A stretch of 64,000 nucleotides of DNA from Asterias amurensis. Taxonomy: Eukaryota > Echinodermata > Asteroidea > Forcipulatida > Asteriidae. The number at the start of each line of letters is the position of its first letter. Positions within the stretch are counted from its first letter, which is position 1. Under the pieces are notes generated by a model. The model was given only the letters and a program-made list of their open reading frames with translations. It did not search any database and was not told where the DNA came from. Of the stretch, positions 34,049-64,000 are shown one piece after another. Location: positions 23,977,332-24,041,331 of the forward strand of contig NC_092649.1 in NCBI RefSeq assembly GCF_032118995.1, read 5' to 3'. Position numbers and translations under genes: made by a program.

Positions 34049-34071
34049 CCAATGGCAATACCTCATATAAA
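34049..34071 (+). promoter_or_regulatory. CCAAT and TATA boxes of properdin-like gene A
   Basis: CCAAT at 34049-34053 and TATAAA at 34066-34071, followed by GGCAACGG. They lie 178 bases before the signal-peptide ATG, placing transcription start near 34096. Gene B has a TATTTAA box at a matching distance. Confidence 0.6.
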
Positions 34072-34243
34072 GGCAACGGTACGGGGTTTAGAAAGTAGAA
34101 ACCAACACGACTCGTGAAAGCATACAGCAACACTGCGTTATACAACTCGCCAAGGATTATTATTACACGCAAGATATATTACCAGAGCGAAGTTTTAGTG
34201 TTATCGTTATCGCCTCAGTTTTGCAGGAATTTTCTCTTCAAAG

Positions 34244-34325
34244 ATGACTTCAATTTTAAGATTTCTGTTTGTGGCTGGCTGCACGGTCCAGCTTCTTTTC
34301 TCTTCAACAGCATTTGCGACGTCAG
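34244..34325 (+). CDS. Gene A exon 1: signal peptide
   Basis: 27 codons with a hydrophobic core (ILRFLFVAGC, VQLLFSS) and a small-residue cleavage zone (TAFATS). Donor GTAAGC, phase 1. Confidence 0.85.
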
Positions 34326-37300
34326 GTAAGCCGGGTATGTTATGCCATAGTTTTGTAGCCTATACTTATTGTTGTTGTTTAAACAAAAGTAGAACACGAA
34401 TCATATGCGAAACTGCACAAAAAAGGTGTTTGTTTTTTTGCAAAAACATAAAGCTGCCATTCGTTCAACATACTTTTTCAGAAACTGGGTACTAACTCAA
34501 TATGCTTCAACCTTAATGTATGTTCAGTAGTTGTGATGTGGATGTCTTATGGTTCGTCTTTTCATATTGGAAGGCTCAACAATTAAAAGACGGCTCTAGT
34601 GTTCTTTCGGGGACATGTGGAACTAAGTGGAACACTTAATGTACCACCTCTAACACAATCATTGTACTTTATTGGGCCTACATATTTTCTATAATTTGCT
34701 ACTAAGAAACCCCACCACCATTATCTAACATCCAAACGGAGTTCGTGGCTGCTCCTTTTCTGTCCCTTTCTTGTGTGTTCAATTTTGAACTTGACCTGAA
34801 CGTTAGAAACTGTGCACCGTGTGGCGTTTGAAAACGTTTTGGACGCGAAGCTGGCACTATTTAACTTGATTCAAGCCCCGTTCTCGTGAGAGAGGTCCCT
34901 GTATAGCTATTGTGGTCCCGAGACAAGTTGTGAGTTTTCTGGACTGAAAATAAAAAGTCTTTCATGGGATTGGCACTTGAGTTTAAGCGGTTATAATAAC
35001 TATAAGTCTTTGAGGATGTGGAATGTTTTCGGTTCGATTCGACCTAGTCTTGCCGAATCAAGGCAAAATATACAATAGTAAGTGATTTTTTAAATTAATC
35101 TACTGTGAAAACAACAGCAACTGGTAATTTTTACAATTATTGGCACTGTCAAAATTAAGAAGACTCTTACTCTCGCTGTTTTAAGACTATCGTGGTTTTT
35201 GGTTAAATACATCGCTTATTTTGTGATCCGCGCGTCTTTTGGGGTTTACGGCCGGACTTGAACACTATAGCCAAACGTAAATTTGACATAGTGCTGGAAC
35301 CGATCTGGACACCAATTTTTATTAGCAGGAATTTTTGTAACTGAAAACAATTTATTATAATAAAAAATTGATAGATAAATAAACATATAACCAACAGTAT
35401 GGATTTTGTTTTGTGATAGATAGTCATAAAATGCTTTCCCAAATAATTATTTAAATAAATAAATAAACAAATGCAAACTAAGCGAACGATCAAGAATAAC
35501 TTCTACTGTATAATTGTGTTCCGAGTTCCAAATGTATGACTTTAATATATTATGATTAAATTAGCGCACTTATATTATTATTCACTGGAAAAAAATGGTA
35601 TTTTTGAGTTATTTAAAACGATGGAGTTAGAATTACCTCTCCGTGATTAAACGTAGTACGTACAGTTAAAGCCGATGGACACTTTCTGAACAGAACAAAA
35701 ATTAAAAGTTCACAGATTTACAAATAACTTACAGGGTTTACAAAAGGTAATGGTGAAAGACTTCCCTTGAAATATTATTCCATGAAATGCTTTACTTTTT
35801 GAGAAAACATTAAAACAATATAAATTCTCGATATCGAGAATAACGGATTTATTTTAAACATATGTCATGTAACTTTCTCCCGACTCAGATGACCAATTGA
35901 GCCTAAATTTTCACAGGTTTGTTATTTTATATATAAGTTGTGATACACAAAGTGTGGGCCTTTGGGCAATACTGTTTAACGATGTTGTGCCATTACTTTA
36001 AAACACTACTCATTGCAAAAACTATTGCTTGTATACGAAAGACACTTGAAACTCATTGTCAATAACGACGCAACGTTAGTGGGGCCTGTGCCATTTAAGG
36101 AAAGTAAAATCTCACACCAACTTAGCCAAGAACCCAAACTATGTTTGTCAATACTCAATAATGTCAGCTGCAGGCATTCTTGAAAATTCGTTATTCTCGC
36201 GCTACTGTGTAAGTTTTATTTCCTGTTTACACGCATTTACCGCTGAAGAGTTCAGGTGGCTACAAAGGGGGCGTGGCTAGCTTCTCACTTGAGGATATCC
36301 ACTACGTGGGGCCCTCCACTGATCTCTTTTACTGACTTATCAGTGGGCACCTCCCGCTAAACGTCTTTTGGTGAGGGCGTATAAAAACCGCACCTTGGCG
36401 TCGTTCCACGAAGGACTCCTTTTGGGGTGTGTGGGGAGCCGCGTTGCCCCCGTCCTGTCGTAGCACCACGCCCATGACCACGCCCACCGACGGCACATTC
36501 AATGCGATTAGAAAAACCATAGAGGTAGCAAAACACGCACACAGTTTATTCGCATCATGTTCTACTAGACAGTCTTAGGCCTTTTTCGAATCCCACGGCT
36601 GTGGCTCTACTTTCGGTTCAGGCTAGCTTGGCCCCGCGGTTGTTTGAAGTGCGTGTTTTTGCGTATGCGCTCATCTAGGGCTTCACACAAGAGGACGGAG
36701 CCTGAAGCCGAATCCAAAGCATGAGCTGTGGTTTCGAAAAGGGCCGTAGATAAGAGTTTAATTGCATAAGTTCTAACCGGGCGCTCTATATGATGGCATG
36801 AACTGTCAAAATTACCTTAAAAATGTTCTTCTAATAATTAAGAATCCACATCAAAAACCAATTCAAACTGAACTTCCATTCACTCAAACTGAACCCGTTT
36901 TTTTTAAGAGTAACCTAATACAACATCCTCGGTTTCGTTTCTATTTTAAAGAGCTGCAAACCCTTATCACTTTATCGATCTGTAATACACTCGGAGGATT
37001 TCCGTGTTGTGTTCAAACACACGGCCTTGCCATCGGAAATTGAATTTATATGTGAAAGAACTTTGAACACGGGGTCAAATCCATAAGAGTTGCCTAAAAG
37101 TAACTGGATAGCCGGCCTCAACTATAGTGGTAGTAAATAATGAACAAACCACACATGGGAAGTGAGACTTCCTGCTGAAACTGTATAGCAGGATAGTGAA
37201 TGGAAATACCAGAGGAAAGGTGTGTTGGGCGGTTATAAAAAGAAATTCACTTCACCCTTATGTTAATAGACAAGATGATTAGTCGTAATATGCTTGCTTA

Positions 37301-40300
37301 TACTACCAGTGTACCACCAACCGAAAAGCAAACTTAAAGAATTTGCAATTTGTTTTTGTGATCTATAAAATGTTTAACATTTGGAAATCTGTACCACCGT
37401 CACAGAGGCCCTACAACACATAATTTTATAGTTTATCCTTGGTGTGATGGTGTGATGTGTGATGAGTAAGGACGAAGTAGTGTTCCATGTTCGGGCGTAT
37501 CAGACTACATACATCGAATTGAACTGAACTTTAATCATCAAACCTTGACTACAAGGTCCTTTCGTGATACAACCAACCATAGAGTAATGACCAAACCCAC
37601 GCCGGTCACTTTCACTCCAGAGCACTACTGTGGAAGATTATAGAGGTTAACCTCGGTGTTTCTGGCCTTCAAAGCCATCAACAACATCCTTGTTTGTAGT
37701 TTGGCTTGCGAGCTTCAGTAAGGTTCACTTATATTATGAGGCATCGTCGGTTTCGTTACCAGAAATATGTAATAAAAATAAGAACATTGCAACGGTGGAC
37801 GTTTTGCCATAAAGGTACAAAATGCTTTGTTGTGATGGTATGTCTACATGGTCTTTGGTATACACAATCCACCGATGTATAGGCTAGTTTTCTGCATTAA
37901 TTTTACTGGTTTTTATTTTATTTTATTAATGCCAATGTTGTGGTAAGTGTTTGTTTTTGTGGGGAGTTCTGTTTTTGTTGTTGGTCAGTGGAGTTTTGTT
38001 GTGTGTGGTTCTTATTCTGTCCTGATGGGACTGTCGTGGGTTGGGCATGTCTTTACTTTTATTTTATTTTATAGTGCCAATATTGTTTTAAGTCTTTGTT
38101 TAGTGTGGAGTTCTGTTTTTATTTGTTGTTGTTCAATGGAGTTTTGTTGTGTGTGGTTCGTATTCTGTCGGTAGGCCTACAAGTAGGTGTTGCATTGTGT
38201 CCTTCGGTTGACTTTGATTCATGGTCAACTCGTGGGGAATAAAATTCACCATCACACGACATCATAATTAAATCCTGGTTCCATCATCAGATCGAAAACC
38301 TAGAGTTACGGGATACTGTTTTGGTCAGCGCACCCCGATAGGTCAAAGAGGCCGGTGTACTGACGAAATACGCCCGCCGTCCAACCAGACGAGATGGTCT
38401 GGTGCGAAGGAGTGTTGCATGCTCGGCGGTGTGGGCTGGACCACCAAAACCAACGGCAAGAGATGTGAAAATGCCTGCGAGGAGGAGGAACCGGTACCCT
38501 ACATGAAGGATGTCCAGTCCCTGGTGGAAACTCCGGTTATACATAAAGACAAGACGAATTTTCAGAATGGTACGCCTGCAGAACTGCACTTTAATGATAA
38601 TCTCAAAACATGCACAGACATTTTTTTACTAGATGTAAGTGGGCATTATAGCTCTATGGCATTATGTGAAATAAAGCATAGAGAGGGCGGCAATTAACCT
38701 GGTGTTGAATTCATTGAATGATATGGTCAAAAGAGGGCGCTCCTCAAAAACAAAGAGGGTGAACCTTTGCGTGGTACAACAACTTGTCAATCTTACTCCG
38801 TGGCCTGGACTTTTCGGACATTCAATACTGATCATAAAAGAGATCGATTACACAACTTTAAAATTATTGTCTTCAAAATGCGAAAGGTACAATTTCAGGT
38901 TTGTGACGTTGGTTGTTGTTAAGAGAAAAGTTAAGGAAGTTATTTGTGTGGTTGTCTCCCCCAAAATTCACATAGTCACGAACAATGCATTATCGGTGAC
39001 TGTTGGGTGTGGGGCGCACCTGGGTGGGGGGGGGGGGGGGTGTCAAGATTATAAATTGGGCCACAAACGATTAGGTTTCAGCTACAATGATATTCTGAGT
39101 AATAGGTTGTTATGACACTGTGACAGATTCGAACAATACTGCAACTGTCTTGTGGAGCGAATGGGGAAACTGGCTGAACTGCACGGCGTCATGCGGAGCT
39201 GGCAATATGACAAGATATCGGACTTGTAACAGCACAGATCACTGTAACGGCTCGAATGAGGAGACTATCCCATGCAATAGCACTACGAGCTGCAAAGGTA
39301 GTGAAAACAATTCAACTAAAAAGGAAATAAATCACATTGTTTTAAACTGTACATACATTTACCACCACTATTAACCACCACCAGCAACAACATACAAAAA
39401 CACCTTTTGCATTCAAGATTTTGTTTTAAATTACTTGGCTCAACTTCAACCAAACCATACTCATGGTGTAACGTAACGTTACTGTTGTTCGCGTGACAGA
39501 TATTGGTAACGCTACTTGGAGTGTATGGGGTGACTGGCAGAACTGCACGTCACCATGCGGTGTTGGCAATGTGACCAGATATCGGACTTGTAACGGAGGA
39601 CAGAATTGTAACGGCTCGAGTGAGGAGACTATTCCATGTGATAGCAATATAACATGCCAAGGTATTTTAAAGAGCGGCTGTGGAAATTTGAATATAACGC
39701 ATCAAGCGAGATTTTCAAGTGGTGCACACCCATCTGCCATTTTACATGTTCAACATGTGCTTCATAATTAAATTGACATTCCATGTAACTGTACATTGTT
39801 TGTCTGTCTATACCAACATGTTTTGTATACGGCTTTCTTCTTCGTTGACCAAGCTCTTATTATGCATTATAAGTCCTTTCAATAATTAGCGTTATTCTGG
39901 TTTAGGAATCTTGGTCTTTTTTCCATTCAAATTATCTTTATGGCTGCTATTAAATAACAATTTCGATGTTGTGGCTCTATCATTGAAATGACGTTTTTCT
40001 TCAATACCGCTTCATGCAGTTATCGGCTAAGGCCGCAGCCATGATAACATCGCTTGATTTGGACACGGCCCATCTCTATAACCGAAACCCCTCCAATACA
40101 TTTCATTTATTTCTGTGCTTGTAAATCCCAGGGACTCTCAGAAAAAGTGAACTTAATCACTGTTTTTGTTTGTATAGTGTGCACAGAGAGCACGACAAGG
40201 TTGAAGTCATTAGTGTAACCATTTTGTTAATTAAAAAAAAAAGGCAAAAAACGAAATCGCAGTCAGAGGCTCCATTGTGTTTAGAGGGTGTATAAAATGT

Positions 40301-43300
40301 TGATAAATGGTGTATGTGTGATTAAATCAGGACCGTTTTCAATGGGGGTAGTCAAGAAATAAGTTTCTGAATACGTCTTCGGTTTCCGAACATCATGAAA
40401 TGAGCCATAACTGCTCAACAATCTGCCACTTGATCACGGTTTAACGACTTCCATGCGTACAAGTCACAGCTCCGCTGTGTAAACGGAGTTTGGTTCGCAA
40501 TGATCTTCGAACATTTTACCAACAGAATGGAACCGAAAAAACAACAGAGATATTTTGTTTCTGTTAAAAAAAAAATCAAACAATCAATCTTTTTTTTTAA
40601 ACCGTTTTCGTTAGGCAACATTCGGATCATTCTTTTTGTAAGAATGCGTTCGAGATACTCGAAAGGTGCACAGTTATTATCCTTAAATCGACTTTATCAG
40701 TAGAATTATTGATTGATTGATTGATTGATTTATTGATTGTTATTCTGATTGATTGTTAATTTATAGGAGAAACTCAGCTACCATCCCAATCCCTTTTTTT
40801 TTTTAAAGAAGAAAACAAAGTTTCCCGATTGACAAAATTTAGCAGTAAATTAATGCAGTATTGAAAAAGATGGCGTTGGACTTTCCACTTACAAAGAAAT
40901 AATATCACTTGTTTCTTTGGAAGTAGGTGTTGTTATTAATTAATGATTTTATTTCTCATGTATTTTCTGTGTTTTCTGAGAGAACACTTCGAGGGAAATA
41001 AAGGGTAACAATTATATAAATTTATATGCTTAACAAACATATTTACGGTATATTTATTGTTACCAATAACATATTAAATTCGAAACAGGTGACCCAAAAG
41101 GCCAAAATAGATTCAATGTACAAAGTTAGAAGATACAAATTTGCATTAAAGGGAAGGTACTCGTTTGGTAACTGTCAAAGACCAGTCTTCTCTCTTGGTG
41201 TATCCCAACATAAGCATAAAATAACAAGCCTGTGAAAAATTGGGCTCAATCGGTCATCGAAGTTGCGAGAAAATGATGAAACAAAAAACACCCTTGTTAG
41301 ACGAATTTGTGTGCTTTCAGATAGGAATAAAAGACTTCTATAGTTAGAAGTCTTTTATCTCTTTTCTCAAAAACTACGTTACTTCAGAGGGAGTCTTTTC
41401 CCACAATGTTTTATACTATCAACTGCTAATTGAGTAATTACCAAACGTGTACCTTCCCTTTAAATTACAAACCAATCACACCAAATATTTGATATTCACA
41501 CCATTTTATTCATGTATATTTTGTTATTTTCTTGTTCTTTTCAGTCGATGGAAGATGGACAGCCTGGGGCGAATGGTCAGACTGTGATCCATGTGACAAC
41601 AACTCAAAGACAACACGTTCTCGAAGCTGTACCAATCCTCCACCGTCCGGAGACGGAAGCCATTGCGCCGGCCTCCAATCGATGACACGTAATTGTCCAG
41701 GAAATTGTCCGGGTACGTTTACACGTCTTTGCATTAGGCCAAAAGAATAACAAATACCAGTTGATCGTACCTTCCCTCATCTTTTTTTTTTTAAAGCCGC
41801 AGGCCTTTTTAATTCTTTCCCCCAATTTTTGTTTTGCATTTTTTTCTTCAAAAATACAATTTGTTTTAGTATTTTTCATTAAACTTACTAATCTTTTAAA
41901 GGCAGTGGACACTATTGGTAATTATTCAAAATAGTTATTAGCGTAAAACCTTTCTTGGTGACGAGTAATGGGGAGAGGTTGATGGTATAAAACATTGTGA
42001 GAAATGTCTTCCTCTGAAGTGCCATAGTTTTCGAAAAGGAAGTAATTTTCAACGAATTTGATTTCGAGACCTCAGATTTAGAACTTGAGGTCTCGAAATC
42101 AACTATCTAAACGCGCACAACTTCGTGTGACAAGGGTATTTTTTCTTTTATTATTATCTCGCAAGTTTGATGACCGATTGAGCTCAAATTTTCACAGGTT
42201 AGTTATTTTATGCATATGTTGAGATACACCAACTGTGAAGACTAGTCTTTGACAATTACCAATAGTGTCCACTGCCTTTAAGAAAGTATGTGGTGACTTT
42301 AAAATGAAGAATCGGTGGCCAGTTTGACTAATACAATGTTTGGCGGCCACCGTTGAAAAAAACAAATCCTCCTCTTTTTGGAAAAACCCGGACGATCAAC
42401 TCGTATTTTGTTTATTTGGCCTTATGTTGCTGCTTTCACCCTTGAAATAAAGTACCGCAACCTTTCTGTTATCTTATCACTGTACCTTGATAAACACCTG
42501 TTTTTTAAAGGATCAATTATTCCCTTTTTTTCACAGAACTCGAGAAGGTACACAGTACTATACTTAGTAAACAGTGCTAATGCACATTGGTGTAAAGGGT
42601 GACACCCAGAATGATTGTTCTTTTATTATAATATTATTATTTATTCGACCAATACAAACAAATCAAAGTTATAGCACAAGACAGAACATTAACAGTTGTA
42701 TAAAAATAAAAAAAATAAGGAAAAAATAAATGCAAAATTATATAAATTAATAAAGTAAATCCTCAATGCAAATTTAAAGGAACACGTTGCCTTGGATCGG
42801 TCGAGTTGGTCTTTGAAAAGCGTTTGTAACCGTTTGTTATAAAATGCATATGGTTAGAAAGATAATTTAAAAGTAGAATACAATGATCCACACAAGTATT
42901 ACTCGAAATTGCGTGGTTTTCCTTTTACCTCGTCGACTAACACGGTCGGCCATTTATGGGAGTCAAATGTTTGACTCCCATAAATGGCCGACCGTGTTAG
43001 TTTGCAAAGTAAAAGGAAAACCACGCAATTTCGAGGCAAATTTGTGTGGATCATTGTATTCTACTTTTAAATTATCTTTCTAACCATATGCATTTTATAA
43101 CAAACGGTTACAAACGCTTTTCAAAGACCAACTCGACGGATCCAAGGCAACGTGTTCCTTTAACATCTAAGAATTATAATTACATGACATCTTTTTGTGT
43201 TGGAATTCTAACACTGTTTTTTCAAGTGTAGCTTTACTAAATTGGCCCCGCTGGGAGCTCTAAACTATTATCATCACCCACTTTTGTCCTTTACACTTGA

Positions 43301-43529
43301 AGTCATAATTTGGATTCTTATGAGCTTTGTTTTAATCGTGTCTATTACAGACCAGAACAATGGCTGGAGCGAATGGTCTGACTGGACGCCATGCTCAGCA
43401 GTTCAATGCGGCAAACAGGGCTTCTCTCTTCGCAGCAGAACCTGCACCAGAGTGTCACCCCAAACTTGCCCCGGTAATTTCCTGGACATCAACACGTGTG
43501 CAGCACCCGGATGCTCTACTGGTAGATAA
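34244..43529 (+). CDS. Properdin-like secreted protein A: N-terminal six-Cys domain plus four TSRs (346 residues)
   Basis: Six exons: 34244-34325, 38291-38569, 39127-39297, 39500-39661, 41545-41712 and 43351-43529, all joined by phase-1 introns. A signal peptide (residues 1 to about 27) is followed by a domain with Cys at 37, 50, 69, 70, 86 and 90, an acidic linker and four TSRs at 121-177, 178-231, 232-287 and 288-346, each with Trp and six-Cys TSR hallmarks. A short CF...GKC...CC...C..C domain before TSRs is the layout of complement properdin, which oligomerises and stabilises the C3bBb convertase; vertebrate properdin has six TSRs. The homology call rests on architecture and cysteine pattern; complement function is inferred. 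The gene model is complete from ATG to TAA. Confidence 0.88.
35666..36002. mobile_element. MITE family F copy, inverted
   Basis: The interior reads opposite to the other three copies and includes ATTCTCGATATCGAGAAT. The right end is partly eroded. Confidence 0.78.
36583..36748. mobile_element. MITE family R copy 1
   Basis: Inverted CTTTTTCGAATCCCACGGCT / GTGGTTTCGAAAAGGGCC ends; shares AGCTTGGCCCCGCG and GAGCCTGAAGC with the copy at 62064-62217. Confidence 0.72.
38291..38569 (+). CDS. Gene A exon 2: properdin-type N-terminal domain
   Basis: Encodes GYCFGQRTPIGQRGRC, KECCMLGG, GKRCENAC and an acidic linker (EEEEP). Cysteine spacing C-x12-C-x18-CC-x15-C-x3-C nearly equals that of gene C exon 2. 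The donor is GTACGC; an open frame continues past it without similarity. Confidence 0.87.
39127..39297 (+). CDS. Gene A exon 3: TSR 1
   Basis: WSEWGNWLNCTASCG, TRYRTC, then three more Cys. All three Trp of the WxxWxxW ladder and the O-fucose motif CTASCG are present, plus several N-x-T/S sequons including N-C-T. Confidence 0.9.
39500..39661 (+). CDS. Gene A exon 4: TSR 2
   Basis: WSVWGDWQNCTSPCG and VTRYRTC. Very similar to TSR 1 (both have HCNGS- or NCNGS-E-E-TIPC), so a recent exon duplication. CTSPCG lacks the Ser/Thr needed for O-fucosylation. Confidence 0.9.
39662..41544. other. Intron between gene A TSR 2 and TSR 3
   Basis: Contains a GATT microsatellite at 40705-40760 and a family B MITE at 41146-41463 ending 81 bases before the acceptor. 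Confidence 0.6.
41146..41463. mobile_element. MITE family B copy, inverted
   Basis: TTAAAGGGAAGGTACTCGTT to ACGTGTACCTTCCCTTTAA, with a central AAGACTTCTATAGTTAGAAG palindrome. Confidence 0.85.
41545..41712 (+). CDS. Gene A exon 5: TSR 3
   Basis: VDGRWTAWGEWSDCDPC, TTRSRSCTNPPPSGDG, then C-C-C. The CSxTCG motif is replaced by CDPCDN, so it is an atypical TSR. Confidence 0.88.
41896..42281. mobile_element. MITE family A copy
   Basis: Full-length copy inside the TSR 3-TSR 4 intron, very similar to 1629-2013 (both have CACCAACTGTGAAG). Confidence 0.86.
42774..43163. mobile_element. MITE family D copy
   Basis: About 390 bases, palindromic nearly throughout: outer GGAACACGTTGCCTTGGATC arms and an inner palindrome centred near 42972 (CGGTCGGCCATTTATGGGAG and its inverse). 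Confidence 0.87.
43351..43529 (+). CDS. Gene A exon 6: TSR 4 and stop
   Basis: GWSEWSDWTPCSAVQCG, LRSRTC, QTCPGN and TCAAPGC end with STGR and TAA. All six Cys are present, so the domain is complete. A weak donor (ACTG/GTAGAT) near the end would also be phase 1 but is not needed. Confidence 0.85.
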
Positions 43530-49537: not shown

Positions 49538-49662
49538 TCACCGTCTGGAACATATTTCACTCTCAAGGGGGTTTCCCTGTACGGACGCACAATCACCCGC
49601 TCTGTCTCTTATCCTCAGTCGGAATCCTCCGGAACAAGCACTCCACTCACCCCAGGGGCAAC
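49538..49662 (-). CDS. Gene B exon 6: partial TSR and stop
   Basis: Acceptor TACACAG, then CPWGEWSACSGGFRLRIRD, GDCASVQGN and SEICSRR before TGA. It has the second Trp and CS start of a TSR but lacks the first Trp, the TCG cysteine and the end. Joining donor T/GTAAGT of exon 5 gives TGT, the sixth Cys of TSR 4. Confidence 0.75.
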
Positions 49663-52600
49663 CTGTGTACAGTCAAACATCAATCAATATTATAAATATA
49701 AAGGAGTTGTACAAACAAAAAGTAAATTTCTTGAGAGTTTGCCTTACGTAATTATGATGAGGGCTACGCCAACCGATCTGTCGACCCAAATCAGCCGTGA
49801 CACTTAAGCAAGACACATAACCATTGCTTCGTCCTTCGGATGGGACGTAAAGCCGTTGGTCCCATGTGTTGTGTAACGCATGTAAAATAACCCAGTACAC
49901 TTATTGAAAAGAGAAGGGTTTGCCCCGGTATTCCTGGCTGTGGCTGCTGTAGCACATTGTAAACCCCATTTAAGGTGCTAAATAATTTGGTCTCAGAATT
50001 CATCACTTCAATAATCTTTCTGAAAGTTTGTATTTACTCAGCGCCTTGAGTATCTTCTTTGGTAGTTACGTGCGCTATATAAGACTTCGATATTTATTGT
50101 TATTATTTATATCAGGCTTCTAGAGGCAAACATATATCAGCGTATTGAATGGTTTCGTAAAAAGTACCCGGATGACAGCATTACTGCTTCAATATGGCAT
50201 TTTAACAAGTTTCGCTGGTTACCATAACATATAGTTGGATGGCCCTTTTTTCGGGGGATACTCGCTATGGCAATATTGCACTCGTCTTCGACTGTTGTCA
50301 TAGCTCGTGCAATATATTCTTGTACCCCTCAAAGCCATAAAATATAATATAATTGTTATTATTTTTATTAACTATCGTGCTCAACAGGTGTACTTACAGG
50401 GTGCCTGCGTGGTCTGGTCACACTCACTTGTTTCACTCGAATCGCCCCCACAGGGTAGACCGCCATTGCTCGGTGGGGGATTATTGCAAGCACGGCTTCG
50501 CACTTGTTCACCTCCTGTGCCACATGATACCGTACAGGGGCTCCAGTTGTCCCAGTCGCTCCATCCCCCATTTACTAAAAGAAAACAGCGTGAAACAATA
50601 GACTCTCGTTAATTAATGATGTTATTAAAATGTTTATCAATGAACCGGAACAAAGCTAAACTCGACTAAAGTCATGATGCATGTATACATGATTGTATAC
50701 TATGGCCAGTTGCCCCTCACACCTTTAGAGGTCATGGCTTGGGTATAATGAAGACGACGTACGTGCGGTTTCTAATGATAATTTTTTGAACGCTAGGTGG
50801 CAGCAGACTTACCAGGTAAATTGGCATTGTTTACGTCATTCTGAGCATAATCACATTTCCAAGAAAATTGGCTTTACTTCGGAATGTGTTAAAGGTTTAT
50901 TTAAAGGCCCGAAACTGCAGTTTGTTCTTTTAGTTAAAAAAAAACACACCTTAAAAGAACATAAATGTGAGGTTATATTAGTTTAGAATCAAAATGGTGC
51001 TGGGAAAGGCTTACGGGCAACTATCTAACCGCTAGAGGGCCGGTATTTACCCATACCTGGACACGTGACGTTGGTATCACAAGGTTTTGACTCTTGGGCT
51101 GTTCCATTACATTGGGATCCTCCATTCTCTGGGGAGGGGTTTGTACACGTCCGATATCGTGTTATATTTCCAGTACCACATGACGCTGAGCAGTTGTGCC
51201 AAGCCCCCCATTCACTCCAATTACCATCCACCACTAGTAAGGGTCAGACAGAAAAAGATATCAGCGCACTTAAAACTCTGTGGGGCTAAGGTGTGTTTTG
51301 TGTTTTCAACTTTCTGTTTTTCGCCTTCACCCATACCCCTCTAGCTCCCCTCTCTCCCGTCGCTCTTTCCAACGCAATATTGGAACAACATGTTTTTAAT
51401 CAATAAATCGGTTTGCTATGCGTCAATCCTCATTTTGACGTCCGGATGCATACTATTGGCAATGCCCTTTCCTCTAATTGCAATACTGTTTTGGATCTTC
51501 TGTGTAAATAAAAGAATATGAAAATAACATGCATAAAATACATGAAGTTTATAGTATTTCCTTCTGCTTCTGCATTTCTTCAAACGGTGCCTCCGGAAAA
51601 ATTTTGTTTCCAAAGAAAAGTTTAAAACAGAAACAAGCAAACAATCAAAATTATTCAACCAAGACGTTACACATAAAACCAGCCCTCTTAGATCCAATGC
51701 AGGGCCTAAAAAAAATATAATATTGGCGCGAGCTAAAACTCAGAATAATTGTTTATATCAATAAAGTACAACTTTATCAAAACTATTACATTCGCGTACC
51801 TGGACACGTGAAGTTTTCACATAAGTTTGACTCTTCGGATGTTCCATTACATTGGGATCCTCCATTCTCTGGGGAGGGGTTTGTACACGTCCGATATCGT
51901 GTAATATTTCCAGTAGCACAAGACGCTGAGCAGTTGGGCCACGCCCCCCATTCACTCCAGTTACCATTCACTATTTAAGACCAAAATAATGAATAACTGG
52001 TGTTCACAATAACGGATGTTTTGTATTGGTTAATGGTCGCTTACTATCACTTTGCATAGCGAGAGACACATACAAGTTGTACTATATTCAGAAACCACTG
52101 TTTTATAGGCAGTGGACACTATTGGTTATTACTCAAAATAATTATTAGCATAAAGCCTTAATTTGGTAACGAGTAATGGGGAGAGGTTGATAGTATAAAA
52201 CGGTGTGAGAAACGGCCCTCTCTGAAGTGACGTAGTTTTCGAGAAAGTAATTTTCCACCAATTTGATTTCGAGACCTCAGAATTAGAATTTGAAGTCTCG
52301 AAATCAAGCATCTGAAAGCACACAACTTCGTGTGACAGAGGTGTTTTTTCTTTCAATATTATCTCGCAACTTCGACGACCGATTGAGCTAAACTTTTCAC
52401 AGGTTTGTTATTTTATGCATATATGTTTAGATACATGAAGTGAGAAGACTGATAGTGTCCTTTAAGTTATTAAAATGTGAACATTCTTGTAAAATAAACT
52501 TGTTTCGTTTGCTATCTTATTCTGCGTCAACAACTACCGAAGGTCATTGCAACCGAGGTCGGGGAACGACTCGGGGTTTGACACTTTATTTCATTTGTAA

Positions 52601-55430
52601 ATAAACCTACATAGCTTACGGCCATTCATAAAAGTCTCCGTTGAGTCATGGCAGTCAAAATTTTAAAACGGTATTGAATGCAAAATTTGCCTCACCCTAT
52701 CTTGCAAAGAAGGCAAAACTCTAAAAATCTAAACAACATGCATGGTGCCTTTTAATGACCCCCCCCCCCGTTTCTACATTTATATTGTGAATGTAGCAAC
52801 AGATAAATGAGTAGAGTGGCTAACCAAATAAAACAACACGCGTACCTGATGGACATGTGACGTTGGTATCACAAAGTTTTGACTCTTGGAGTGTTCCATT
52901 ACATTGGGATTCTCCGATCTCTGGGGAGGGGTTTGTACACGTCCGATGTCGTGTAATAGTTCCAGTACCACATGACGCTGAGCAGTTTAGCCACGCCCCC
53001 CACTCATTCCAGTTACCATTCACTACTATAGTCGGTAGCGGGGAAAAAAGGGATAAAATCGGACTTTTTGAACTTTGAAAAAGACACACAAGCAAATTGA
53101 TATTTGGAATTTATATAATAATGTTTTAAAGGCTTTGTAAAGTGTGGCCGGGTTTGGCCAATATAAAGTAAAATAAAGCACAGCGCTATTTTGCCAAATA
53201 CACCTAAAAATTACACTAACTTTAATCAGAAGAAGGAACCTGAACTTTTTCTAAATGAAAATGGGTTATTTTAGTGGTTTGGCAAAAATACTTTTTTTTC
53301 CGGAAGCAACGGATTATTCCAGAATACTGTGACGACCGTTTACAAAACTGCGGGTTCTACCAAGTCCTTAACAGAAACTAGTGGTTTTAACGAGTTTCAA
53401 GTATTTAGAGTATAATTTGAAAATCACGTAGGGGGCCTAAGTAACAAAGACACTCAAATTAATACCTCACATGAGTTAGAATTCAAACAGGTTTTACTGG
53501 CTATTAGTTTATATCCTAATTTGTCAAAGAAATGCATCAGCCATTGGTAGCGTGTGGTGTGCACTATAAAATCTGCCGGGTCAGAACTGACCCGGATTCC
53601 AGATTCCGGAAGGTCTGACCCATTTTGGGGTAAAAAAAACCTATAATTGAGTCAAACTGTGACGTAGAATCCGGGATGATTTCCCATGTTTGAAACATTT
53701 TCCCGGGTCAGATTGACCCTATCCACAGTGACCCTAGAATCGGGTCAATTCTGACCAAGTAGTTTTGAAAGTGTAACTAGGCATTTTGTTCTAAATTAAG
53801 TCTTGATTGTAACGACGCCTCGATACACAGAAGAGGTGTTTGGCATAACAATCCAAAAGCTCCTGATAGGGATTGGACCCCATTGTCTAAAAGTCGGCAT
53901 GTGTACACTGCAAAACCTGGGGTGTTTTAACCATTTAAAAATTGATCTGCTTTGTATCTATAATATGATGTGACAGCACCGACACGGTGTTAATTTCACC
54001 AACGATATAGTATGGGGATAAATTACACCATGTTGGTGTTGACACATACCAAGAAGAATCAATTAAACACCCCAGTTTTTTTTAGTGTACGAAGCAACTA
54101 ACTCAAAACCAATAGTTGTTATGTAAAACGCATGTTGTGATAGCCTTTATACAGGAAAGAGTGGCCGGCAAAAGGGTGAAGTGCCGGTCATTTCCTTTTA
54201 ATCCTCTGTGAACTTTTGAAAGCATTCCTCTTATAAAAACAAACACCCAACAGTCATGCCTCTCTGGTACCTCCCTTTGGTGCAAGTACGAGGTTACATG
54301 GAGGTCATTGCAACAATATGTAGTGTTAGTAAACGCATCATGCCAGCCACAAATGGCAGCCTTAAAGACACTGGACACCTTTGGTAATTGTCAAAGACAA
54401 GTAAAGAAACATCAGAATCGGGTAAATTTACTAACCATTATTGATATCAAACTTTGCCATGTAGTATGGGATATTGTTAGGTACAGTAAGACAATGCCTA
54501 CGGTGTGCCCTCCGAAAAAGCCCAACTTGAAAAAAATGACAATTTGGGAACAAAATACGCAGATGAGCCTTTTTGCCTTAAACCGGAATGAAAGAGGCTG
54601 ATTTAAATGGGAAAATCAAATTGAATTGACCCAGAAATGATCTTATTTGAAACCAAACCTTTACTTAGAGTTGGGATGATTGCCATGGAAGGCTACACTG
54701 TGTAACCTTAACACTGACTGGTCTCCATACCAGTTGCTAAGTAACACACCAATTAAATGACCAAAATTATCTCTAAGCGCTCCGGCTGTGTTGAATTTGA
54801 CACCATGGGTGTTTTCACACATAATACAAAAACAAAAATCTAATTTAACACCATAGAGTGTTATAATAAAACCAATGCAATATTGACATAGATAAAATAA
54901 GTGTAAGTTTGACAGTCTATTGTGTAAATTTTGGGTGTTTTGGGGGAAGCTATAATATGTGACAAAACCAATTATGTTTCCACACCCCAGTTGTTGCAGT
55001 GTGGCTAGCTTAGTGTTGAGACGTCTTTGATATAAATATGGACTAGTCAAAAATCTAAGGGACTATAATGCCAAGCTATAACTGGTCCTTATGGACACTC
55101 CTTGAATGAAACGTTTAAGGCAAACCTTGTTAAAAATCTTCAGGGCTCGATTTCAAAAAGAGTTAGGACTGGTCCTAGAGTTAGGACTAGTCCTAAAAAC
55201 CTAGGACCAGTCCTAGGAGATATTAAACAACTTAAGGCTAGTCGAAAGTTAGGACTGGTAACTCGTCTCAACTCGAGATAAGATTAGTCTTAACTCTTTA
55301 TAAAATTCATCCATTGTCCTACTCCCACTTTATGTAGTCTTTGTCTCAACTCACCTGGATTGTCGCAATAACACGTTGAGGCAAGAAGGAGTAAAATTCC
55401 AGCAAAGATACCACCAACTCTGGAAGTCAT
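49538..55430 (-). CDS. Secreted TSR protein B: signal peptide, four TSRs and a partial fifth (301 residues)
   Basis: Six exons on the minus strand: 55430-55355, 53025-52846, 51970-51800, 51233-51057, 50574-50398 and 49662-49538, all phase-1 introns. A 25-residue signal peptide is followed by TSRs at about 26-85, 86-142, 143-201 and 202-260, then a truncated TSR (261-301). TSRs 1-3 are close copies of each other and of gene A TSRs 1-2. The last splice restores a split Cys codon that completes TSR 4, which supports including the short final exon. No six-Cys N-terminal domain was found between the signal exon and TSR 1. Likely a secreted or matrix protein paralogous to A and C; function not shown. 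Confidence 0.86.
49740..50111 (+). mobile_element. SINE-like element, fuller copy
   Basis: Contains CTTCGGATGGGACGTAAAGC, CATGTAAAATAACCCAGTAC and a 3' part ending CGCGCTATATAA-like plus a TTATTGTTATTATTT tail. Shared with 4030-4265 and 11188-11400. It lies in the last intron of gene B. Confidence 0.62.
50112..50345. mobile_element. Deletion derivative of the 45165-45905 element
   Basis: Matches both flanks of the Crypton-fragment element (TATATCAGCGTATTGAATGG and GCAATATTGCACTCGTC) but lacks the recombinase part. Confidence 0.65.
50398..50574 (-). CDS. Gene B exon 5: TSR 4
   Basis: GGWSDWDNWSPCTVSCGTG, VRSRACNNPPPSNGG, LPCGG and SECDQTTQAP; the sixth Cys is split over the donor GTAAGT. Closest in style to properdin TSRs. 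Without splicing the frame would read CKYTC and stop at 50381. Confidence 0.85.
51057..51233 (-). CDS. Gene B exon 4: TSR 3
   Basis: VDGNWSEWGAWHNCSASCG, ITRYRTCTNPSPENGG, SQCNGT and NVTCPG. Over 60 consecutive bases identical with exon 3. Confidence 0.92.
51800..51970 (-). CDS. Gene B exon 3: TSR 2
   Basis: VNGNWSEWGAWPNCSASCA, ITRYRTCTNPSPENGG, NFTCPG. The O-fucose motif has become CSASCA. Confidence 0.92.
52101..52465. mobile_element. MITE family A copy in a gene B intron
   Basis: Left end AGGCAGTGGACACTATTGG; right end reduced to TAGTGTCCTTTAA. Confidence 0.8.
52846..53025 (-). CDS. Gene B exon 2: TSR 1
   Basis: VNGNWNEWGAWLNCSASCG, ITRHRTCTNPSPEIGE, NVTCPS. Acceptor ACTATAG and donor GTACGC. 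Confidence 0.92.
53570..53765. mobile_element. MITE family N
   Basis: CCGGGTCAGAACTGACCCGG at the left and GGGTCAATTCTGACC at the right in inverted arrangement. Confidence 0.6.
53902..54091. mobile_element. MITE family O
   Basis: GTACACTGCAAAACCTGGGG and, inverted, CCCCAGTTTTTTTTAGTGTAC ends flank about 140 bases with ACACGGTGTTAA / ACACCATGTTGG repeats. Confidence 0.7.
55139..55313. mobile_element. MITE family H-prime copy 2
   Basis: CGATTTCAAAAAGAGTTAGG to CTTAACTCTTTATAAAATTC, rich in CTAGGACCAGTCCTAG-type palindromes. Confidence 0.72.
55355..55430 (-). CDS. Gene B exon 1: signal peptide
   Basis: MTSRVGG, then IFAGILLLLAS and TCYCDNP before donor GTGAGT. Shares the MTS start and phase-1 end with gene A exon 1. 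Confidence 0.8.
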
Positions 55431-57488: not shown

Positions 57489-57585
57489 ATGAAGACGAGA
57501 GGCCGTGAGATGATGAGTTGTAGAGCCCAGAAGGCCGTCCTTTTAGCGGTGGCATGCTTTGCCATCTGCAGTATTGCTGTCGCCG
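57489..57585 (+). CDS. Gene C exon 1: signal peptide
   Basis: Basic lead (MKTRGRE), then AVLLAVACFAICSIAVA and donor GTAAGT. The hydrophobic core and small-residue end fit a cleaved signal peptide. Confidence 0.75.
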
Positions 57586-60500
57586 GTAAGTTGTTGTTAT
57601 CAAGTGGATGTTTCTATTATTATGGCTTTCATTATTAGGCCAAGCTATTGCTATGAGGCCCAACCAATCATATAAGGCAATCTGTAGTTTTCTTTCTGAG
57701 TGAAATAAATGACGCCAAATCGAGGATATTAATGTCAATGTTCGGCTTCTCACACCATTTAGGTATATTTAAAACCACTGAGGCCGGTGTGTTCCTTCAA
57801 AACAAACAATGTGATGACATTGACACGAGTGACAAACTTGATGTCATTGTTTATTTGGTCACTCTCAGCCTTTTAGATATCAGTATTCTTATAAATAAGG
57901 TTTTTGTCCAGGAGGAAGTAAGTTTAGTTCTTTGCCGACGAGTACTAGTCTGTTTTGTATTTTTTTAACTTTTCGTTCAGACATTTTGTTCTCTTCTACG
58001 TTCTTGCCGATACGATCTTTTACGAAGAAGAAAACGGAAACAAAAGATCAATGTATTATTGTTGATATCTTTATTATATTTTCATTATTTGTTTGTAGTG
58101 TTAAGTTGTGTCTATTTAATTCTAATCTTCTGAAGGCCAAGTCGAGAAATAAAAACAGTTGAATGGTAGATATAGACAAATATAATTATATCTACAACTA
58201 GTTTATACACACGACTTTCAAATAAGTAACTCACAATGCAAAAAGCAGATTTGTGTGTTGCACAAACTATGGACAACCCCATTTGGTAGATTTAACGTAC
58301 AACCTTAGCCGTTGCAAAAATAACTATTCACAATTTCGGTAGGTTTTAGTCGCTATTTATTTATACATTTATTTGTTGTTGAAGCATAGGTTTTCTCGGT
58401 CAAATTCGGCAAATCAGCAGCCAATTTCATTTTCATGCGTTCGAATTAAAGCTGTTTTGCCTCTCCAGTTGTTACTGCATGTCAAGTTCAGAATTCGGCC
58501 ATTCAATTTCGTTTTGAGTCGAGTCAAATTCCTTTAGCACTATGTTCAATTTAGTGTGTCGTCATTCTTTTTCGAGACACACACGCCTCAAGAAGCGACT
58601 GCGAATTTGAACGCTGCTTTGATGAATTGTTAAATTGAATGATTATTTTGTTAAATCGAATAACGCAACATTACATTTGACTAATCATAAAATGAAATCG
58701 AATGACCCTTTTCAGTAGCATTCGATTTCGCGCGAAATAGAATAGCTTGATGGTTAAATTGGCTGCTCTTTTTCCGAAATTGGCCGAGAAAACCTATAAT
58801 AGTGTATCACACCATTTACCATGCAAACAATGTCCCCGGTTCAGATTCTATACCATCCGGAAGCAGATTTCCGTGGTGTAACCGGATTCTGTTCACATTG
58901 TACTCAAATCACTTTCCTTTCTGGGAAAACCCCCTTTAATCTAATTGTGTGGCTTGAATAGTCAACTTTATCTTTAGAGTACACATTGACACAAAATAAT
59001 ACAGAATTGTTTTTTTGCGAACATATCAGTTTCTGGCAGTGTAATCGCTTTATGTAATCCACTATATACAACTCAAGATAAGACCAATTTAAGAACTCAC
59101 TATTTCTGCAGTAGTGCAGTTAATAACGATCCTATTGATTATTAGCTAAAGTAGTAGTCCCAACCAATTTACTACATTCTGCACAGGTAGTAGTTAAAAA
59201 GCAGGACAGTTCTTTTGCAGAACTGAGTCTCCAGAACAATCCGATAAATCCGGGGGAAAAAATCTACTAGTAGTAGTATACATCTGCTCTCTAGAGAACA
59301 TTACCTGGCAAGTAGATACACACATGGTGTTACCGCAAACCAAAATTAACATTTATAAACTCACAGATAATTCCAAACGAGATTAAATAAGGGAATCAAT
59401 GTGTGGTGAAGAGCTTTTCAACTAGTGGTTTAAACCCAACGAGGCCTGGTTCTTGATAATTTTACCGAGACGAAGTCGAGGTAAATTATCAAGAACCAGG
59501 CCTCGGCGGGTTTAAACCACTAGTTGAAAACCGATTCAACACACTTTGATTCCCATTCATAAATACCTTTTCGGTCAAAATCATCATCACTTTTTGGTCA
59601 AAAAGTAAAATAAATGCAAAAATAATAATTGTTAAACGATTTCTTTCAACACAACACAACGCTGCCCTCGCGTAAACAACTCCTTATAAGGGAGTGCTGT
59701 GCGCGTCGCGCGTATCGCGTGATGTGGCACAACTGTTTCAGCCGTTGCTCTCGACCAATAGGAATGAAGAAACTCTTATAAGAACAGGTGCAAGGTCGCG
59801 TGTCACGCTCATGAATTAACACTTTCAGTCATTATCAAAAGGTTTTTGCACACCCACGTGACGCGCTCTCCACCAATAGGAGTAGAGAAACTATCTGGGG
59901 TATTTGTGAATCATTTATAATAAATAAACGGCATCCAAATACGAGATTCTAAAGTATGTTTTTACACAAAAATGACACTGTTGTAAATAAATATTGTGTT
60001 GTCCAATTCTTAGGTAACGAAGAAGGTTTTTGTTTTCGTCACCGGACACCGATCGGCAAAAGGGGGAAATGCCATGGGTTGGTTGAGATACCTCCCGGGT
60101 CTGGTGCCCAGATGAGCACTGCCGCTGAGTGTTGCGACCGTGGTGGTACCGGGTTGGCAGAGAGGATCACTGGCAAGAAGTGCCGAGATGCCTGCGACGG
60201 GGAAGCTAATGGTCAAGAGCAAATGGCAGAGGAGGATGAGGATTCAGCCCGAGGTATAGGTTAACAATAATCCAATCAGAATAGAACCGTACAAATCACA
60301 GTATTTCGGGAATGAAATGAGTTTACATATACAAAATAAAACACACACACATAAACAGGCATGTTTATGGTGCAGACCGTGGACATCTCTGTGTTCTCCC
60401 ATTGGTTTTGTACACAAAATCTACCGAGGACTGTCCCCGGTGTGACTTTTTCGTTGGATCCCTTTTGTTAATGTCCTCGGTTATCAATGGTAGACATGCC

Positions 60501-63500
60501 CAGTGTTTTACGGATTCGTCCCTCCCGGCTGAACAGTGTTTGGAGCGTGGCAAGAGACATGTTCCCTACAAGAGCCATGCTCCCTAGAAAAAATAGAAAG
60601 AAATACCAGTCAAATATAATGTGCTCTCTCTTGCTCGTAGCTAAATTGGAAAATAGCATATTATATCTTCAGGTCTCGACCCCAAGTAAACTGTGCATCA
60701 CTGAGGGCGCACTTGGGCTCCCTACAACAACAATAACATGATATGCACCTGACGATCATCAAACGAAGTTGACGTTATTAATAGTTTTGATGACGGCATC
60801 ATTTGGCATTAGTTCATGAAAACAGTGCAGTTATTATAAACATATTTGTTTTTCTATATCGTTGTTCTAGGATCTTTTAATATCGTTTTTCACTGTTTAC
60901 TATCACCTTGTTAAAGTCCCAATTATTTATTCAATAATCAATAACATGATTATTTATATTCGTTAGTTTATTTGTTTTTAAGGACTGTCCTCCTCCATTC
61001 CTGGAAGACCTGGAAGTCACACTAAGTCTGTTCTATTGCCCAAATAGCCGACTGGGGCAGGTGTGTCCCTTTAAGTGGCTACGTATTTTTTTGTCATTTA
61101 TCTGATGAGTGCATTAGTGGATCGAAACGGTCTGTCCAAAAGAGAGATACGCAAAGGTTTAATTAATAGCTCATAATCTGAATTTATTGCATAAATATTT
61201 ATATATATTAAAGGGAAGGTACACGTTTGGTAATTACTCAAAACAAATATTAACTTAAAAACTGACTTGGTAACGAGCATTGGAGAGCTGTTGATTAGTA
61301 TAAAACATTGTGGGAAACGAAGATACGTAGTTTTTGAGAAAGAGGTAATTTCTCACTACAGTAACGAAAAAACTTCTAGCTAGAAGTCTTTCACTCTTAT
61401 CTGAAATCACACAAATTCGTCCAATTAGGGTGTTTTTTTCTCTCATCATTTTCTCGCAACTCCGATGACCAATTGAGCCTAAATTTTCACAGGCTTGTTA
61501 TTTTATGCTTATGATGGGATACACCAAGTGAGAACACTGGTCTTTGACAATTACCAAACATGTACCTTCCCTTTAAATAATAAATAGGGTAGATGGCCTT
61601 AGCTTTCGATCCAAACCGGACCTTCTTCAGAGGACCTTCCTCTTTATATATCCTTTTTTTTTTACACATAGTTTTTACATAGAGACCATTCCTTCTTTTA
61701 TGATGATAAACATGCATTTGTATGCAAAGAATGACATCCAACTCATTTTAACTCCGCAGTGGGAGGAGTTTTGGGTGAGTGGGGTGAGTGGACGCCATGC
61801 TCCGTCTCGTGTGGGGAGGGCACTATGCAGAGGCAGCGGGAGTGTATCTGCATGTCTCCTGGAAACAAGACGTGTTGCAACGGTCAAAATGTTGAGGAGA
61901 AGCTCTGCAATACTAATGTGTTGTGCCCAGGTAAATATACCTTTATCATTCCTACACCATCTCGGTCATATCCCACGTATCTAGCAGCGGTAAAGGGATG
62001 CTATCATTCATTGTGCAAAAAGAAAAGACTATTTTGCCCTTCCAGCCTCGGTTGTTTACATTGGCCCTTTTCGAAACCACGGCTTCGGCTTTGGATTCGG
62101 CTCAGGCTGGCTTTGGATTCGGCTCAGGCTAGCTTGGCCCCGCGCTCAGGACTTTAGATGAGAGAACGGAGCCTGAAGCTGAATCCAAAGCAAAAGCCAT
62201 GGTATCGAAAAGGGCCACTGATTGGAATGAGAGAGAATCAATAGACCACGGGACGATGTTCCAAATTCTGATTTCCAGTAGTCTACCCCACACAAATGCT
62301 TTTATTGGTCTCAAAATTTGTAGGAAATTCCACTAACCACGTCTCAAAAGTCGTCAAGCCCAAAACTTGCATATTATAGATTCACTTGCGAAGTAAGTAA
62401 CAAAATACGCTAATGAGTTGCAAAAAATAAATAGATGACCATAAAATTATACGTTCGGCCAATCATAGCGCATTCAACATTTATGTGGATGTGTGGACCA
62501 ATGAAAGAGCTTGTTTCTGAATACTTTGGTCCTAAGGATTTCAAAAAGATGTCGTCTTATCGGGAAACGTTGCCTTTGAAGGACTACTCGACCTCTATAA
62601 AACTACATTATACTTCAAAGGTGGTCGTATTTAACAAGGTTTATTACACAACCCAGTGCACTTTACTAAAATAAGGTTTTACTGTCATTAACTTGTGGAT
62701 TAATTACAAAAAAGTACATCTTGTGTTTCATGGTCGTATCCAAAATGGCGGCAGTGGTTAGGGCTGCGGCTGTTGCTCAGGGATTCTACGAGCATGGGTA
62801 CGAGCACAAAGTCTCTTGATGTGTCTGATTTGGCGGTTAGTATTTGGTGCGTTCGATTAGCTTCCCTGGGTCGACCCCGCGCAGCCGAGGGAAAATGGAA
62901 CGGTCCGGGGATCACCGAGGGAGTCGTAGTTTTAACCATAGCACGAGTTAAAGCAGTCAATAATATTTGTTTTATTACACCCAACAGACTATTTATCATC
63001 TTCGTACACGTAACGTTCGTATGCGCGTTTCAGATACACAACTGATTGGATTTAAGGTGGGTAAAAAGACGTCAGGGTACTGCACGCCATGTGATAGTCG
63101 TCGGACTATCACACGGCAAACGATGCACCATCACACGGCCGCCGTCTAGTAAAACTAAGACATATCATGTGACGCGCTCTAAACCAATGAAAAGGCAGAA
63201 TATTTGTAAGGGGTGTTCAAATAAAACATTGTGAGAAACGGCTCCCTCCGAAGTAACGTAGTTTTCAAAATAAGTAATTTTCCACAAATTTAAATTAGAG
63301 ATTTTGAGGTTTTGAGGTCTCAAAATCAAGCATCAGCTGAAAGCACACAACTTCGTATGACAAGGGTGTTTTTCTTTCATTATTATCTTGCAACTTTAAC
63401 GACCAATTGAGTTCAAATTTTCACAGGTTTGTTATTTTATGCATATGTTGAGATACACCATTAAGTGAGAAGACTGGTCTTTGACAATAGTATCCTGTGT

Positions 63501-63729
63501 CTTTAAATCTATTCTTTATTTTGCACTTTACAAACGTGTCAACTACTTAACGTAATAGTGAATGGACAATGGGGCGAGTGGAGCCAATGGAGTGAATGTA
63601 GCGCCACCTGTGGTGAGGCAATGTCCCGATCCCGCGAATGCGACTCCCCACTACCGCAGCATGGTGGTGACAACTGCACGGGAGACTACATGGATGTCGC
63701 ATGGTGCAACAATAAAAGAAAGTGCCCAA
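57489..63729 (+). CDS. Properdin-like secreted protein C: N-terminal six-Cys domain plus TSRs (continues past right edge)
   Basis: Exons seen: 57489-57585, 60014-60253, 61760-61930 and 63559-63729, all phase 1. The first in-frame ATG gives an 8-residue lead before a hydrophobic signal core; a second start at 57510 is equally possible. The N-terminal domain has Cys at 39, 52, 72, 73, 89 and 93 with GFCFRHRTPIGKRGKC, AAECCDRGG and GKKCRDAC, then an acidic linker and two TSRs. The last donor (CCCA A/GTAAGG) implies more exons to the right. Same architecture as gene A and properdin. A further open exon at 60375-60585 would end the protein early if used. Confidence 0.85.
58386..58797. mobile_element. 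MITE family M
   Basis: ATAGGTTTTCTCGGTCAAAT at the left and GGCCGAGAAAACCTAT at the right; the inverted repeats extend about 40 bases (inner CAGCAGCCAATTT / AAATTGGCTGCT). Single copy here, in intron 1 of gene C. Confidence 0.8.
59394..59935. mobile_element. Family G element, copy 3, inverted
   Basis: Palindrome at about 59400-59550 and CACGTG at 59855-59860 with CACCAATAGGAGTAG. The NRF-1-like site is not kept; that part is GCGCGTCGCGCGTATCGCG. Confidence 0.8.
60014..60253 (+). CDS. Gene C exon 2: properdin-type N-terminal domain
   Basis: Spacing C-x12-C-x19-CC-x15-C-x3-C. RTPIGKRGKC is shared almost exactly with gene A. The acidic tail AEEDEDSARG precedes donor GTATAG. Confidence 0.88.
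60375..60585 (+). CDS. Possible alternative terminal exon of gene C
   Basis: After GGTGCAG the frame in the right phase is open for 69 codons to TAG: GHLCVLPLVLY, EDCPRCDFF, AQCFTDSSLPAEQCLERG, and so on. Six Cys and a frame open exactly between a phase-matching acceptor and a stop are suggestive, but the pyrimidine tract is weak and there is no donor. It could be an isoform end, a decayed domain or chance. Confidence 0.3.
61208..61576. mobile_element. MITE family B copy
   Basis: TTAAAGGGAAGGTACACGTT to CATGTACCTTCCCTTTAA; central ACTTCTAGCTAGAAGTC palindrome. Confidence 0.86.
61601..61630 (-). ncRNA. Hammerhead-like core, second family
   Basis: On the minus strand CTGAAGA, a stem GGTCCGG...GGATC and GAAAGCT follow in hammerhead order; one base differs from the core CUGAUGA. 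Typical of Penelope-like element ends. Confidence 0.35.
61760..61930 (+). CDS. Gene C exon 3: TSR 1
   Basis: LGEWGEWTPCSVSCGEG, RQRECICMS, KTCCNGQN, LCNTNVLCPG. The first Trp of the ladder is Leu, and eight Cys rather than six are present (extra CIC and CC). Confidence 0.88.
62064..62217. mobile_element. MITE family R copy 2
   Basis: GGCCCTTTTCGAAACCACGG and GGTATCGAAAAGGGCC ends, with an internal tandem of GGCTTTGGATTCGGCTCAGG-like units. Confidence 0.75.
62880..63506. mobile_element. Family J element fused to the right half of a family A MITE
   Basis: Family J (62880-63224) is followed at once by family A from ACATTGTGAGAAACGGCTCC to TGTGTCTTTAA, the same junction as at 29165. It ends 52 bases before a gene C acceptor. 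Confidence 0.72.
63559..63729 (+). CDS. Gene C exon 4: TSR 2
   Basis: NGQWGEWSQWSECSATCGEA, SRSRECDSPLPQHGGDNC, WCNNKRKCP. Full Trp ladder and O-fucose motif CSATCG; PLPQHGGDNC resembles the loop of vertebrate properdin TSRs. Donor GTAAGG. Confidence 0.9.
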
Positions 63730-64000
63730 GTAAGGTGGACCTGACATTTTCTTTGTACAGTTTTTTTTATGTTAAAATACTTATACTGTATATTATTATA
63801 GAAAAAGAGTTCATTTCAGAACATGAAAATGGAGACCAAGGTGACAACGTCATGCACACGTCAGAGTTATACGATGAAAGAAATACAATACTGATGTTAC
63901 GGGTTTTTTTCTGGCAAATTTAAACTTGAAGGCAACCAATTCATTCTGAGATATGGACACACTCATCATATGACACTATTAAGTTTGTGTAAATTGGTCT
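63730..64000. other. Intron of gene C at right edge
   Basis: AT-rich, no further exon before the window ends. Confidence 0.6.

Follow-up and report, generated by a model that had tools for sequence, protein, structure and literature searches.

We analysed a window of 64,000 nucleotides from the starfish Asterias amurensis (contig NC_092649.1, positions 23,977,332 to 24,041,331), in which the part from 34.2 to 64.0 kb consists of three genes for proteins built of thrombospondin repeats (TSRs), here called A (+ strand), B (- strand) and C (+ strand). GT/AG splice sites were present throughout the exon models of all three genes, with one domain per exon and boundaries in phase 1. Genes A and B are convergent, while B and C are divergent with about 2.06 kb between their start codons. 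The first exons of all three are signal-like, as judged by eye. An earlier note on this DNA had described a cluster of three adjacent TSR genes, with a signal-like start, a six-Cys N-terminal domain (N-domain) and TSRs in A and C, and with gene B between them devoid of the N-domain. The exon models and searches with hidden Markov models (HMMs) bore out this gene content; the picture of the cluster needed correction in that B lies on the minus strand and C extends past the end of the window.

Gene A comprises six exons and encodes 346 amino acids, in the order signal peptide, N-domain and four TSRs. Its product was identical to the A. rubens protein P0001, which has the same length, in 335 of 346 residues. 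Exon 1 (34244..34325) provides the start codon and the signal-like peptide, matching the start of P0001, and exon 2 (38291..38569) encodes the six-Cys TB-like N-domain followed by an acidic linker, as recognised by HMM (E 4.6e-21, gene A itself being included in the model) and by fold. The sequon-rich TSR1 (39127..39297) and TSR2 (39500..39661) were seen both in the exon model and by Pfam. TSR3 (41545..41712) has a first Cys loop of 2 residues according to the exon model and loop listing, and TSR4 (43351..43529), which ends with the stop codon, is an abnormal unit resembling TSR5 of properdin, with the loop C-SAVQ-C and without the O-fucose motif; this motif is missing from TSR2 and TSR3 too. 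The last intron of gene A contains a near-perfect inverted repeat (42774-43163) with 194-nt arms that are 95% complementary and separated by a 2-nt gap, probably a foldback transposable element.

Gene B also comprises six exons, encoding 301 amino acids on the minus strand with intact reading frame and splice sites. Exon 1 (55355..55430, exon model) carries the start codon and signal-like peptide, and is followed by TSR1 (52846..53025), TSR2 (51800..51970), TSR3 (51057..51233) and TSR4 (50398..50574), each supported by exon model, Pfam and HMM. The last exon (49538..49662) encodes a degenerate fifth repeat without the C-x-x-(S/T)-C pair, and the stop codon. Gene C has four exons inside the window: exon 1 (57489..57585) with the start codon and signal-like peptide, exon 2 (60014..60253) with the six-Cys TB-like N-domain and acidic linker (HMM E 3.3e-21, self included, and fold), TSR1 (61760..61930; exon model, Pfam and P0002) and TSR2 (63559..63729; exon model and Pfam). 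All 226 of the 226 in-window residues are equal to the start of P0002, a protein of 453 amino acids named 'properdin-like [Asterias amurensis]', which adds three TSRs and an acidic tail beyond the window. The complete order is thus signal peptide, N-domain, five TSRs and acidic tail. TSR1 of gene C has extra cysteines (C-I-C ... C-C) as compared to ordinary TSRs.

Six-frame searches of the whole window gave exactly two matches to the N-domain HMM, namely exon 2 of C and exon 2 of A. Their E-values are not independent, as the model was built from 11 rows that included A and C. The same search did not reveal any N-domain exon for gene B. A TSR HMM, which contained C-type repeats, found 10 strong stretches in the whole window (E 4.7e-19 to 3.2e-9). 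The broken last repeat of B reached an E-value of only 0.13 and was recognised by its position, splice sites and reading frame; four further matches (E 0.16-0.87) were taken as chance. Thus, A and C follow the plan of a TB-like six-Cys domain and then TSRs, and B does not.

The N-domain of A and C looks like a TB-fold domain. In a PDB fold search the properdin TB domain ranked first for both N-domains, with statistically weak scores, and in second fold alignments, covering only the 18 and 48 chains ranked highest by Foldseek, fibrillin lay within 1 Z of properdin for both. The TB and hybrid domains of fibrillin and LTBP and the N-domain of follistatin belong to the same TB-like fold class. The six cysteines were invariant across 11 aligned N-domains; in properdin the N-domain disulphides are given as 32-56, 43-73 and 57-75, that is C1-C3, C2-C5 and C4-C6 in order. 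Comparison of the N-domain profile with that of the properdin N-terminal TB domain by hhalign, through intermediates, returned a probability of 94.3 and an E-value of 1e-7, stronger than an earlier comparison with fewer sequences (64.6 and 6.3e-5), and a single control against TSRs returned a probability of 0.1. The similarity to the N-terminal domain of properdin, as claimed in the earlier note, was thus upheld, and neither profile nor structure searches placed the N-domain in an unrelated family.

The N-domain sequences of A and C were compared with those of vertebrate properdins by counting, among 1000 Cys-preserving shuffles per domain, those that reached the HMM score of the real domain. 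These HMM tests used 11 non-vertebrate N-domains, leaving out P0064 and P0070. With the vertebrate HMM the counts per 1000 were lowest in amphioxus (0), one further protein (1), the crinoid (2) and the nemertean (6), followed by Acanthaster (15), the jellyfish (16), Patiria (61) and the snail (83), while A reached 219, the ophiuroid 230 and C 966. Both C and A were detected, with 0/1000 shuffles each, by an HMM built from seven N-domains not of starfish origin, and the HMM of all eleven detected each of seven vertebrate domains with 0 to 3/1000. The sequence link of the A and C N-domains to properdin therefore appears to require intermediates. The Pfam family PF18487 did not list A or C even at a maximum E-value of 10, and matched 2 of the 11 related N-domains. 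Single-sequence searches with the N-domains gave no relatives beyond the same gene (P0001 of A. rubens for A, P0002 for C). A single-sequence PDB search gave nothing for the A N-domain, and three matches for the C N-domain, which we took as chance; a match of a 7-sequence N-domain profile to the protease inhibitor LmKTT-1a in the PDB (E 0.076) was likewise judged to be chance, arising from the CC motif. We do not claim orthology, since only 1 of 13 inner branches was well supported in a tree of the N-domain, and 1 of 12 in a tree of N-domain plus late TSR, and the branches were very long. Kinship of the N-domain to the N-terminal TB domain of properdin is supported by fold and by profiles through intermediates.

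Relatives were surveyed among the best 120 of 276 matches obtained with the whole C protein. In the resulting 121 proteins, a six-Cys domain of the same pattern preceded the TSRs in 20, of which 13 are non-vertebrate and 7 vertebrate. A loose pattern had given 21; P0061 and P0114, with another Cys pattern, were removed by eye and P0108 was added, and P0050, named complement factor properdin but without the TB pattern, was counted as TB-less. The 13 non-vertebrate proteins are two from Asterias and one each from Patiria, Acanthaster, an ophiuroid, a crinoid, amphioxus, a nemertean, a bryozoan, a snail, a scallop and a jellyfish, plus one more. All seven vertebrate proteins contain PF18487, and six of them are named properdin. 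Proteins of Patiria miniata (P0016, coadhesin-like) and Acanthaster planci (P0025, hemicentin-1-like) showed 46% identity to P0002 over 97% and 85% coverage, respectively, and share with C the plan of TB domain and five TSRs with a W-x-C penultimate TSR; their names reflect the TSRs and not the N-domain. No further Patiria miniata or Acanthaster planci protein was among these best 120 matches, in which four invertebrate proteins carry the NCBI name 'properdin-like'.

A late TSR with an abnormal Cys loop appears to be a second mark that A, and in altered form C, share with TSR5 of properdin. In human properdin TSR5, the stretch between two cysteines, normally three residues long, is replaced by an enlarged, non-glycosylated loop, as described in PMC6713926 and PMC10087229. 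A TSR with a longer loop was present in 9/13 non-vertebrate TB proteins (penultimate in five, last in three, and fifth of eight in amphioxus), and was the penultimate TSR in 7/7 vertebrate ones. Among TB-less TSR proteins, four-residue loops were found in 8/101 (p 2e-6) and any loop longer than three residues in 13/101 (p 3e-5; Fisher tests, ignoring species kinship). Five of these eight four-residue loops look by eye like slips of the parser, which would leave 3/101, and the raw counts were used. The parser also read N-domain cysteines as TSR in P0049, P0079 and P0108 and slipped on one unit of P0077, and most such cases were filtered. Amphioxus P0015, crinoid P0104 and nemertean P0077 combine a TB-like N-domain and TSRs with one TSR bearing a four-residue abnormal loop. 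Gene A ends on its abnormal TSR, as does crinoid P0104. Unlike P0015, P0104 and P0077, C has in its penultimate TSR the loop C-PEE-C, abnormal in its W-x-C and lack of an O-fucose motif but of the normal three-residue length; the relatives in Patiria and Acanthaster share the W-x-C, the length and the missing motif. The abnormal late TSR is absent from B and from the jellyfish protein. In local alignments TSR2 of C was 65% identical to TSR2 of Patiria and 60% to TSR3 of amphioxus.

Gene B resembles A in its TSRs. TSR1-3 of B are up to 57% identical to TSR1-2 of A, and 75-85% identical among themselves. There are 14 N-glycosylation sequons in A and 13 in B, as compared to 4 in the 453 residues of C; in sequons per residue among 123 TSR proteins, a rotifer protein came first, B second and A joint third. 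Some of the sequons in the A and B TSRs (39127-39661, 51057-53025) adjoin the first Cys. C would be the conserved form, with TB domain, five TSRs, abnormal penultimate unit and acidic tail, an architecture shared with two other starfish. A would be a shorter, divergent paralogue with TB domain and four TSRs, the TSR5-like unit being last, and B a TB-less paralogue with A-like, sequon-rich TSRs.

With vertebrate properdin (CFP), a blood protein that strengthens complement defence, A and C have in common the signal peptide, the N-terminal six-Cys TB-fold domain, the TSR array and the abnormal late TSR. Human properdin has an acidic tail, and the C-terminus of the gene C product is acidic as well. 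Other properdin features are absent. Human properdin has six TSRs, as compared to four in A, four and a fragment in B, and five in C (P0002). The thumb loop of TSR5 (residues 328-336) and a 31-residue insert in TSR6, the index finger, both contact C3b and Bb, according to PMC6713926 and PMC10087229. This thumb measures 9-11 residues in 7/7 vertebrate proteins, 4 in A and 3 in C, and B has no such unit; the last-TSR sequences of A and P0002 have no index-finger insert. Against PF22195, the model of properdin C-terminal TSRs with its 90 positions, the single best stretch per protein reached no further than position 37 in any of A, B, C and P0002, and no further than position 41 in eight invertebrate proteins together with P0002 and P0001, as against 1-84 or 2-86 in vertebrate P0046 and P0079. 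The mammalian grip on the convertase cannot be assumed, since the six TSRs, long thumb and index finger are missing. A, B and C are relatives of properdin and not demonstrated properdins.

We propose, with somewhat better than even confidence, that the products of A, B and C are secreted, belong to an animal-wide TB-TSR family that includes vertebrate properdin, and act as multivalent scaffolds. The products would be rod-like TSR proteins of the coelomic fluid or extracellular matrix. The TB domain of A and C may pack onto a TSR of another chain, as the TB domain of properdin does onto TSR4, and such packing would yield multivalent chains bridging surfaces that bear glycans or opsonins to other fluid-phase proteins. 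Binding of C3b through the TSR5-like face is possible, but no stabilisation of a convertase of mammalian type would be expected from proteins with a short thumb and no index finger. Lacking the TB domain, B could not use the TB contact and may be a monomer or a competitor. Our confidence in this proposal was lowered slightly because the targets of the profile-profile comparison were limited to properdin and TSRs.

Gene B might instead be a decaying duplicate and not a functional gene, as the Cys pair is lost from its last TSR and the N-domain exon is missing. We consider this unlikely, as frame and splice sites are intact over six exons and the first exon is signal-like. Slightly less probable is that these are TSR proteins of extracellular matrix or adhesion to which a TB domain was joined independently. 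Database names point that way, being coadhesin-like and hemicentin-like for the starfish relatives of C and ADAMTS adt-1-like for P0001; fibrillins also have TB domains, and long TSR proteins, including several of molluscan and one of coral origin, make up the top non-echinoderm matches of C among the best 120 of 276. However, Pfam scans of the three genes and of P0002 (C being scanned at full length only as P0002) gave nothing but TSR families above cut-off and no domain of metalloprotease, Ig, EGF or VWA type, and TB domain and late abnormal TSR co-occur well above the TB-less background, species kinship ignored. We rejected ADAMTS for want of a metalloprotease domain in Pfam scans of the same four sequences; these scans also gave none of the Ig, VWA or EGF domains and VWD or TIL domains that accompany the TSRs in hemicentin and SCO-spondin. 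In PDB sequence searches properdin was the top-scoring solved structure for the TSRs of all three genes; we did not take this first rank as proof, since chains of six TSRs outscore chains of three.

It is doubtful that C is a working properdin that binds starfish C3b and stabilises C3bBb in the coelomic fluid, A and B then being tuned paralogues. The domain order, acidic tail and abnormal late TSR agree with this, and in A, B and P0002 the summed PF22195 score exceeds the cut-off. For sea stars, PMC4503460 reports contigs resembling properdin, C3 and C2, and for each of these components treated animals exceeded controls in at least one contig. Against it stand the absent index finger of TSR6 and long thumb of TSR5, which contact C3b and Bb, and the PF22195 stretch that breaks off early in the invertebrate sequences compared, as against its end at 84 or 86 in the two vertebrates. 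Less probable still is an extension of the scaffold proposal, in which the TB-TSR plan with its special late TSR would be an animal-wide ancestor of properdin and older than the convertase loops of vertebrates. In Asterias it would have become a small local system, with C as a conserved multivalent scaffold, A as a glycan-shielded paralogue and B as a TB-less, glycan-shielded competitor limiting assembly or ligand binding; such a positive and negative regulatory pair in one locus belongs to that extension and is equally speculative. That the N-domain is a TB domain of follistatin or LTBP type, and the proteins bind ligands of the TGF-beta family, is very improbable, as properdin came first in both fold searches, A, B and C have no Kazal, follistatin or cbEGF domain by Pfam, and the TB domain is followed directly by TSRs as in properdin.

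The earlier note had treated such genes outside vertebrates as a surprise, which they are not: a sea star contig similar to properdin was printed in 2015 (PMC4503460), and NCBI uses the name 'properdin-like'. The note's suggestion of an expanded, diversifying system is based on a single locus. A paper on amphioxus properdin reportedly exists, and did not turn up in the literature searched. That literature gave no description of the Asterias cluster, of a TB-less paralogue rich in glycan sites, or of the late-TSR mark. We class the locus with the TB-TSR (properdin-like) kind and not as properdin; its kinship to properdin looks real, and a complement function of A, B and C is putative. The existence of invertebrate relatives that combine a TB domain, TSRs and a TSR5-like unit and yet have no convertase loops would point to an older scaffold that acquired stabilisation of C3b/Bb at a later stage. 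Sea stars would be practical for testing this order, with C3- and C2-similar contigs reported in the same 2015 source (PMC4503460).

Elsewhere in the window, an open frame of 236 amino acids at 19332-20042 (+) is coiled-coil-like and matched no Pfam family above cut-off. Another open frame at 10542-10913 (+) weakly resembles the end of a ubiquitin-specific protease (USP) domain (PF00443, E 0.00088, 19.4 bits with a cut-off of 23.9), and might be the final exon of such a gene. A dispersed repeat with a 28-base core occurred at 14 sites in the window (1918 to 63442) with at most 3 mismatches, where 0 were expected, and some copies lie within introns of A, B and C.

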